DNA of 40,081 nucleotides from Oceanospirillaceae bacterium. Its GTDB lineage: Bacteria > Pseudomonadota > Gammaproteobacteria > Pseudomonadales > Balneatricaceae. Positions 1-1,059 of the stretch are shown in pieces (position 1 is the first letter of the stretch; each line of letters begins with the position of its first letter). The translations under genes were made by a program, and so were the position numbers. The notes beneath the pieces are model-generated. The model was given only the letters and a program-made list of their open reading frames with translations, was not told where the DNA came from and did not search any database. The stretch lies in NCBI GenBank assembly GCA_013215375.1, contig JABSRB010000048.1:1-40081 (forward strand). The letters are read 5' to 3'.

Positions 1-216
1 TTAATTAAGAAGTTTTTTTGTGTTAAAGTCAATTTCGATTTATTGTAAATGTAGTTCAGGATTTATGAAATGTATATATTTCAAATATTTACTGTAAATG
101 TGATTGAATAGGATTCATAATTGCATTCAGTGTAGTATACACAGCACCAAATACAGTAGACCAATCAAATCATAACCGCTATTTTTAGTTCATAAGATAT
201 TTCATTTGTAATGATT

Positions 217-297
217 ATGAACGTAAGAAACTTTGTAAACGCAATTATACTGGTACTCGTGGTGGTCAATTTACCTCGGGGCTTTTTGTTGACGTAA
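217..297 (+). CDS. Leader peptide of branched-chain amino-acid (ilv-type) attenuator
   Basis: A 26-residue open frame whose residues 10-17 (codons at 244-267) read IILVLVVV: eight consecutive Ile, Leu or Val codons, with further Leu codons at residues 19, 24 and 25. This is the hallmark of the ilv and ivb leader peptides of enteric bacteria, where ribosome stalling on scarce Ile/Val/Leu-tRNA decides terminator formation. The stop codon lies 18 nt before a strong terminator whose 5' arm can pair alternatively with the last codons. No clear Shine-Dalgarno is visible before the ATG. No ilv gene follows: the next gene is on the other strand. It could be a chance frame, but the codon run plus the adjoining attenuator makes that unlikely. 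Confidence 0.6.
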   Translation: MNVRNFVNAIILVLVVVNLPRGFLLT

Positions 298-346
298 ACA
301 AATACAAAAAATAGACCCCCGCTTCGCAAGAACCGGGGGTTTTTTT
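277..346 (+). promoter_or_regulatory. ilv-type attenuator: antiterminator and Rho-independent terminator
   Basis: The terminator pairs ACCCCCG (315-321) with CGGGGGT (334-340), seven base pairs, followed by T340-T346. A competing antiterminator is visible: CGGGG (277-281) plus TTTTTG (283-288) can pair with CAAAAA (305-310) plus CCCCG (317-321), which uses up the 5' arm of the terminator. The left strand lies inside the last codons of the leader peptide, so ribosome position would control it. From memory, the E. coli ilvGMEDA attenuator terminator has the same CCCCCG/CGGGGG stem and T-run. No gene in the same orientation lies downstream. Confidence 0.72.
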
Positions 347-370
347 ACGTCCATGGATGGACTGTCAGGA

Positions 371-577
371 TTTTTGTTCCTGACAAATCTCAAGTTCTCA
401 CATCCATGTGAGCTAAGCCAAAGAGCGTATATGTTCAGGATGAACGGTCAGCTTTTTTGTTCCCGACAAAACCTAAGTACCTACTTCCCTGTAGGAAAAA
501 CGTAAGTGACGCGGCGTTATTTTGTTCCCGACAAATCACAAGTACTCACGTCCGTGTGAACAATACTAAAGAGCGCT
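371..577. repeat. Three tandem copies of a two-hairpin repeat
   Basis: Three imperfect units each carry TTTGTTCCYGACAAA (373-387, 456-470, 521-535), a 5-bp stem with 5-nt loop. Ten nucleotides after the first and third copies, and nine after the second, comes a second small hairpin with a TCC-containing loop: CTCACATCCATGTGAG (397-412), CCTACTTCCCTGTAGG (480-495) and CTCACGTCCGTGTGAA (545-560). The first and third units end in a shared AAAGAGCG. Unit spacing is 83 and 65 bp. The second hairpin varies by compensating changes (CTCAC/GTGAG versus CCTAC/GTAGG), suggesting that structure is conserved. It lies between the attenuator and the 3' end of the NYN gene. Confidence 0.7.
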
Positions 578-585
578 AGTTTTTG

Positions 586-1059
586 TTAAATTAAATCCGC
601 CATCAGAATTTCTCGATGTGTATCAGTACAGTCCATTAATGTTTTGGCAGTGAGCTTAGTCACTGAGTGCACTTGAGTGATGACGTTTTTATGTTTGGCT
701 ACATGTTCTAGCAATATAGAAAAATCCCCATCCCCTGAAAGTAAAATTATTTTATCGACAACTGGTGCTTGCTCCATAATATCAATGGTGATGCCAACAT
801 CCCAGTCGCCTTTAGCGCTGCCATCTGCTCGCTGAATATAAGGTTTCAGTTTTACATTAAAGCCAATATGACGCAATGCCGCTTGAAACTTTTGCTGTCC
901 AGTATCGTTGCTATCTATCGCATAGGCGGTAGCGTTAACTATGTCATGATTTTTAGAGCAATCACGCCAAAATTTACGGTAGTCAAAAGAGCGATTATAA
1001 ATGGCTTTAGTGGTGTAATAGATATTCTGTACATCTACAAATATGGCTGTTTTATGCAT
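586..1059 (-). CDS. NYN/PIN-domain (LabA/DUF88-like) protein, putative RNase
   Basis: A 157-residue protein starting MHKTAIFVDVQN. The acidic cluster pattern is that of the NYN branch of PIN-fold nucleases: FVDVQN at residues 7-12, KGDWDVGITID in the middle, and LLSGDGDFSILL near the end. These Asp residues would hold a metal ion. The family includes LabA-like proteins and is generally taken to cleave RNA, though many members are untested. The frame stays open 44 codons upstream (to 1191), but that part is low-complexity, lacks family resemblance and would overlap the divergent gene, so the ATG at 1059 is preferred. No strong Shine-Dalgarno is visible. It is divergent from the AlkC gene with about 100 bp between start codons. 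Confidence 0.82.
   Translation of the reverse strand: MHKTAIFVDVQNIYYTTKAIYNRSFDYRKFWRDCSKNHDIVNATAYAIDSNDTGQQKFQAALRHIGFNVKLKPYIQRADGSAKGDWDVGITIDIMEQAPVVDKIILLSGDGDFSILLEHVAKHKNVITQVHSVTKLTAKTLMDCTDTHREILMADLI

Follow-up and report, generated by a model that had tools for sequence, protein, structure and literature searches.

Why should a complete attenuator of the ilv type stand alone, with no ilv gene behind it? The question is raised by the first 346 bases of the window, by which we mean the whole stretch of DNA analyzed here, namely all of contig C43 (40,081 bases) of a draft genome (G000) with 96 contigs and a completeness of 95.3%. The window begins exactly at an end of C43, which the sequence alone could not reveal to the first-pass annotation, and the leader starts 216 bases from this contig end. 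G000 is assigned to the same genus as the relative G004.

An attenuator with all its parts

The region comprises the following features, in order along the contig.

157..185, plus strand: candidate promoter TAGACC-N17-TATTTT, seen by eye, with 4/6 matches per hexamer; weak
217..297, plus strand: leader peptide ORF MNVRNFVNAIILVLVVVNLPRGFLLT, ATG217 to TAA297, 26 codons plus stop
237..346, plus strand: match to covariance model R1 (see below) as an ilvG-type attenuator, 59.5 bits, E 2.6e-12 in 157 kb
244..267, plus strand: eight consecutive Ile/Leu/Val (ILV) control codons, IILVLVVV, from the translation
277..321, plus strand: predicted antiterminator, 277-281 paired with 317-321; by sequence, 283-288 could also pair with 305-310
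314..346, plus strand: attenuator terminator hairpin, C316-G321 with C334-G339, plus T7 (340-346)
347..585, plus strand: dispersed repeat array directly on the T-run of the leader terminator, from a repeat search of G000
586..1059, minus strand: convergent NYN-domain-like gene (stop 586-588), the next gene after the repeats; NYN is a putative domain assignment

The leader of 26 residues with its eight consecutive Ile/Leu/Val codons and the CCCCCG/CGGGGG terminator with T7, all claimed in a first-pass annotation of this DNA, are thus present, as is the arrangement behind them, in which only repeats precede a convergent gene. An in-frame alternative ATG at 211 would extend the leader by MI. The terminator stem (314-321/334-341) contains an inner 3-bp stem, is followed by a U-tail to 346 and folds alone at -18.1 kcal/mol. 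For the antiterminator, which had been placed at 277-288/305-321, one half is borne out, as 277-281/317-321 is present in the minimum-energy fold of 270-321 computed with arm 4 withheld (-10.6 kcal/mol), but the other half, 283-288/305-310, is possible by sequence and absent from the folds. When 272-346 is folded, the terminator (-22.0 kcal/mol) is ahead of the antiterminator (-14.9 kcal/mol) by 7, and in the full fold a protector helix (252-265/271-283) pairs mostly the ILV codons with arm 2. The candidate promoter is not listed by a consensus promoter scan; it is positioned like the TTGACC-N17-TATTTT ahead of the ilvB leader of G004. The window holds two eight-codon ILV runs, one of them complete with leader and terminator, and 5.0 Mb of first-order Markov sequence of the window's composition held 50 such runs and 0 complete leader-plus-terminator cases.

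Judging by homology and folding, we infer a sensing mechanism as in ilvL. With charged Ile-, Leu- and Val-tRNAs, the ribosome would clear the leader and the 3:4 hairpin would end transcription at about 346; with scarce Ile, Leu or Val, the ribosome would stall at 244-267, allowing 277-281 to pair with 317-321 (2:3) and the polymerase to read on. Read-through would enter only the repeat array and the antisense of the NYN 3' end, and because nothing else lies downstream the attenuator controls no visible gene.

Membership in the ilvG class

A profile (A1) of ilvG/ilvB-type acetolactate synthases found 27 loci at 676 bits or more in 244 genomes of the order, with the next match at 620.6 bits; two of the 27 (L150 and L151) had helped to build the profile, and one genus contributes several of them. 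Of these ilvG-type loci, 25 have a leader rich in ILV or Ile codons upstream (21 recognized by script, L151 separately, and L154, L155 and L165 by eye), while the remaining two, L166 and L176, have a terminator without a clear leader. Upstream of the ilvG-type gene and terminator of L176 (G248) we noted by eye a frame in which Asn-Val units recur up to a final DVIVPILANSGALID; it is perhaps a valine leader that has grown by repeats.

The covariance model R1 was built from an alignment of 15 ilvG-type attenuators of the same order, with the window left out, and searched against 17 sources. The antiterminator helix changes its register from one relative's sequence to the next. The window, whose E-value across the whole genome is 8.4e-11, ranks third, after L127 (a training member that shares its locus with L151) and the ilvL of E. 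coli K-12. Leaders outside the training set scored 44.5 (L167), 40.4 (L168), 35.2 (L123), 34.8 (L124), 30.8 (L152) and 24.9 bits (L122), and seven further rows reached at most 14.8 bits, including the true leader of L175 (14.8); E. coli ivbL, in L149, was not matched at E <= 1. R1 therefore does not reach all branched-chain leaders. No Rfam family reached its gathering score within the window; below cut-off were Thr_leader at 23.5 bits (cut-off 55) and His_leader at 21.2 bits (cut-off 49).

Because of the R1 score, the leaders before 25/27 ilvG-type loci and the ilvBN leaders in its own genus, we conclude from sequence comparison that the element is a transcription attenuator of the ilvG (ilvL) type, ribosome-mediated and structurally intact, so that its first-pass description as a complete ilv-type attenuator now has the backing of an independent model and of leaders at loci of known type. 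It has the ILV-codon run, the terminator after the leader stop, the exclusive antiterminator on arm 3 and the homology with members of the class. What it lacks is a branched-chain biosynthetic gene downstream, where repeats and a convergent gene are found instead, and it is therefore classed by descent and structure and not as a working operon leader.

What such leaders control in relatives

When the leader region was used as a DNA query against 57 genomes (G000 and relatives), the window itself was the sole match. Because the leader sequence evolves too fast for a plain DNA search to find relatives, we traced it via the ilv genes. Searches of plasmid and phage collections gave short pieces only, at E 0.03 or worse, and two exact-pattern scans of viral contigs gave no match.

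In three species of the same genus (G004, G005 and G006) a valine-rich leader and a terminator lie ahead of ilvB and ilvN. In G042, an Ile/Leu/Val leader much like that of the window, NIIMLLVVVINISARG, is followed first by a small ORF, then by an ilvG-type gene and finally by a short ORF that takes the position of ilvM. None of the 29 ilvI-like loci (L086-L114) showed an ILV leader plus terminator ahead of the gene on its own strand, the eight matches listed for these loci falling inside, behind or opposite the gene; the same scan caught 4/5 leaders before isozyme genes (L122, L123, L124 and L127) and missed L126. No convincing leader was found upstream of the ilvD and leuA-like loci scanned in the genus. 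The check on relatives proposed with the first-pass annotation, namely which of ilvB, ilvG and ilvI follows such a leader, thus finds branched-chain leaders ahead of 25/27 ilvG-type loci, ahead of ilvBN in three congeneric species and, upstream on the gene's strand, ahead of none of 29 ilvI-like loci.

We made two further observations at these loci. All three species of the genus (L122, L123 and L124) have the same ilvB leader peptide, MKFAIQALITQLLHVVSVVVLVVVNVSS, and one close to it occurs in L152, which belongs to a member of another family (G103); this likeness is higher than expected for a leader, and horizontal transfer of ilvBN is possible. Moreover, a hydrophobic small ORF of about 38-70 residues lies between attenuator and ilvG in L127 and L153 (G042 and a relative), as does ilvX in E. 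coli.

Across 116 genomes of the family, with R1 at E <= 0.05 and strict filters (and 31 candidates scored for each genome among the rows listed), matches were found in 70/116, the best besides the window at 39.9 bits. The 18 matching loci inspected are mostly plain terminators; at L190 the locus begins at a contig end and the leader is present. The branched-chain leaders recognized among the 18 are the ilvBN leader and an Ile/Met-rich leader in G290. The latter, at about 1495-1590 of L186, consists of a short leader, MSCITTKIMMIIHTNRGLVG, and a terminator directly before a threonine-dehydratase-like gene (ilvA-like, by eye), and is possibly an Ile/Thr attenuator in the same family. This search missed the G004 ilvBN leader, which gave 24.9 bits when scored on its own locus, and the absence of divergent leaders in the family is therefore soft. 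The ilvG-type leader looks rare in this family, and for this reason one possible history is that an ilvG operon was acquired horizontally and later lost.

The ilvG/ilvB-type gene is missing from the assembly

At the TIGR00118 cut-off a single acetolactate synthase passes in G000, an ilvI-like gene on contig C11 (865 bits) with an ilvH-like partner behind it; two weaker relatives lie below the cut-off (312 and 209 bits). R1 found no leader at the ilvI-like locus. With the ilvG profile the best score in G000, 590 bits, is that of the same ilvI-like gene, against at least 676 bits for the 27 ilvG-type loci. The neighborhood in which ilvBN lies between GDSL and epimerase genes in G005 and G006 is split in G000, with its genes apart on C53 and C67. 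As profile searches find the ilvI type only and the genes of the ilvBN neighborhood lie apart, the ilvG/ilvB-type gene is missing from the G000 assembly altogether and not displaced within it. The earlier statement that no ilv gene follows the leader is true for C43, and the assembly as a whole is without a gene of this type. Because the genome is about 95% complete, ilvG is possibly in the organism and yet unassembled or unbinned.

A broken neighborhood and a repeat array seated on the terminator

In all five genus relatives that have an NYN match (G001, G002, G003, G004 and G006), NYN is convergent with a nearby cold-shock gene, cspA, with a response-regulator gene beyond it; G005 has no NYN match. 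In G000, cspA and the response-regulator gene are on contig C20, separate from NYN. The leader therefore sits where cspA is expected. In these relatives the NYN locus gave no leader with R1. Positions 1-230 of the contig have no convincing match in the genus relatives, and the leader is therefore seen in no relative, before or after the break. Short ILV ORFs downstream of NYN in L015-L017 were considered as kin of the leader and rejected, as they gave no R1 match at E <= 1.

The array between leader and NYN belongs to a dispersed family, with 28 further matches at 17 other places in G000. At 13/17 of these places the array starts, by regular expression, directly on a T-run (TTTTTTATG...CAGGATG-like), and at 12 of those 13 a hairpin folds right up to the T-run, the exception being L214, where no hairpin reaches it. 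At L217, missed by the regular expression, a terminator behind a tRNA-like end lies some 20 bases before the repeats (by eye), and two loci of G004, L051 and L081, resemble the 12 terminator-seated arrays (by eye). In the window, the T7 of the leader runs into ACGTCCATGGATGGAC, a variant form of the GTACAGGATGTAC palindrome usual in these arrays, in keeping with the pattern of the 12/17; the array thus sits on the attenuator terminator as other arrays sit on ordinary gene terminators. The first ~220 bases of C20 are repeats of this same family.

The arrays at window 347-585, L075 (1-220), L210-L225, L051 and L081 open with the palindrome GTACAGGATGTAC, GTTCAGGATGAAC or GTCCATGGATGGAC, the stem of which varies in a matched way around a constant GGA core. 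These palindromes may resemble the CAGGAUG hairpins of CsrB-type RNAs.

Why the leader stands alone

What is directly established is the identity of the element, the intactness of its parts, an assembly without ilvG/ilvB, a cspA/NYN neighborhood that is broken and a junction at which an array sits on the terminator. On these we base a model, to which we give an even chance, whereby an ilvG-type attenuator was cut off from an ilvG-type operon by a break in a terminator-seated array, through inter-array rearrangement or through loss of the operon. At this junction, the array occupies the attenuator terminator on one flank and borders NYN on the other, where a cspA-side array should end; inter-array recombination, insertion, operon loss or the wrong join of two arrays would each yield such a junction. 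Insertion is indistinguishable from rearrangement because the sequence of the cspA-side end of C20 is absent from C43 (its last 15 bases outright, its last 22 even allowing 2 mismatches). We infer that the break at the array is biological and recent; against this, selection for a function in the present would likewise have kept all parts intact. Most likely the chromosome, or its assembly, was broken within the repeat array; our first choice is a separation there through rearrangement or gene loss, with an assembly or binning artifact next. The earlier suggestion of a relic left after an ilv operon moved fits the missing gene, but the orphan state is known from one draft genome only, near a contig end and beside a repeat array, so that a technical cause is possible.

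According to the artifact explanation, which we regard as a serious if somewhat doubtful contender, two arrays were misjoined, the leader really lies before ilvG-type genes, directly or across repeats, on a contig outside this bin, and NYN and cspA are still neighbors facing each other. In favor of this, the leader falls within the terminal 346 bases of a draft contig, the cspA-NYN order is intact in 5/5 relatives checked, and the contig that carries cspA ends in the same repeat family. Moreover, the GC content of 1-346 is 31%, as compared with 36-49% per segment in the next 7.6 kb, although intergenic regions are usually low in GC anyway. On the other hand, the longest exact stretch that the window array shares with any of the 17 other arrays of G000 is 32 bases, which makes a simple misjoin to one of them unlikely, and C43 lacks the end sequence of C20, which a branch on shared k-mers would have repeated there.

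The old attenuator terminator may instead have been retained as the 3' terminator of the convergent NYN transcripts, an explanation that we consider improbable. A scan of 1-1100 lists two terminator-like sites, one per strand of the hairpin at 314-346, and no other such site from the NYN stop to the end of the contig. On the minus strand the hairpin has a folding energy of -18.8 kcal/mol, and in G004 and G001 a hairpin lies between cspA and NYN, with A runs before and T runs after it. Yet the hairpin lies about 250 bases past the NYN stop, behind the array, and such a role has no need for the leader ORF, the control codons and the antiterminator, all of which are intact. A terminator role for NYN alone might preserve the hairpin.

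There is similarly little to be expected of an autonomous unit without a cis gene, whose RNA or peptide would report Ile/Leu/Val supply in trans or whose hairpin would have been co-opted as the terminator of the convergent gene. If true, an array of small palindromic hairpins read only under starvation would amount to an RNA-output "operon" switched by amino acid supply. Least credible is the specific form raised in the first-pass annotation, a free-standing sensor whose attenuated RNA of roughly 130 nt or 26-residue peptide would act in trans by analogy with the trpL leader: all attenuator parts are intact and a precedent, peTrpL, is reported for Sinorhizobium meliloti (PMC7298713), but no target is apparent, the promoter is weak, no other R1 match in the 116 family genomes under strict filters reached 40 bits, and the recognized branched-chain leaders among the 18 loci inspected precede ilvBN or an ilvA-like gene, with no second orphan among them. 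Beyond the intactness of its parts, nothing in this genome favors action in trans.

If the break is biological, as in our preferred model of separation at the array, terminator-seated repeat arrays can part a regulator from its operon and leave the regulator intact; if the element is an autonomous sensor, the idea of the trans-acting attenuator is extended to branched-chain amino acids. In either case the locus presents a textbook device together with a warning, since a regulator found orphaned at the very end of a draft contig raises, before anything else, the question of whether the join is right. The literature covered showed neither a case of an orphan attenuator nor one of repeats seated on terminators, which does not prove that none has been published.

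Comparison with known systems

The rnTrpL leader of S. meliloti still precedes its trp gene, whereas the leader of the window is without a cis gene. Like the element described here, rnTrpL/peTrpL is an attenuator leader, and action in trans is reported for it (PMC7298713). Within the genus, the ivbL-like ilvBN leader MKFAIQALITQLLHVVSVVVLVVVNVSS of G004, G005 and G006 is also a branched-chain attenuator and belongs to an acetolactate synthase isozyme; it differs in being valine-rich, in a main run without isoleucine, in its R1 scores of 24.9-35.2 bits and in lying at another locus. The ilvG-type attenuators of the order (such as L151/L127 of G042, L157 and L167) have in common with the window the ILV run, the CCCCCG...CGGGGG terminator and an RG/GG turn that encodes the CGGGG arm; in these, an ilvG-type gene follows downstream, in some (L127 and L153) with a small ORF between. 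Finally, E. coli ilvL, the attenuator of ilvXGMEDA, shares the ILV-rich leader and the CCCCCG-type terminator arm with CGGGGG, and its R1 score of 61.1 bits compares with 59.5 for the window. Thus the window attenuator is a further case of the well-known E. coli ilvL kind, with the difference that ilvL is followed by ilvX and then, 140 bases on, by ilvG, and the window's leader by repeats and a convergent gene.
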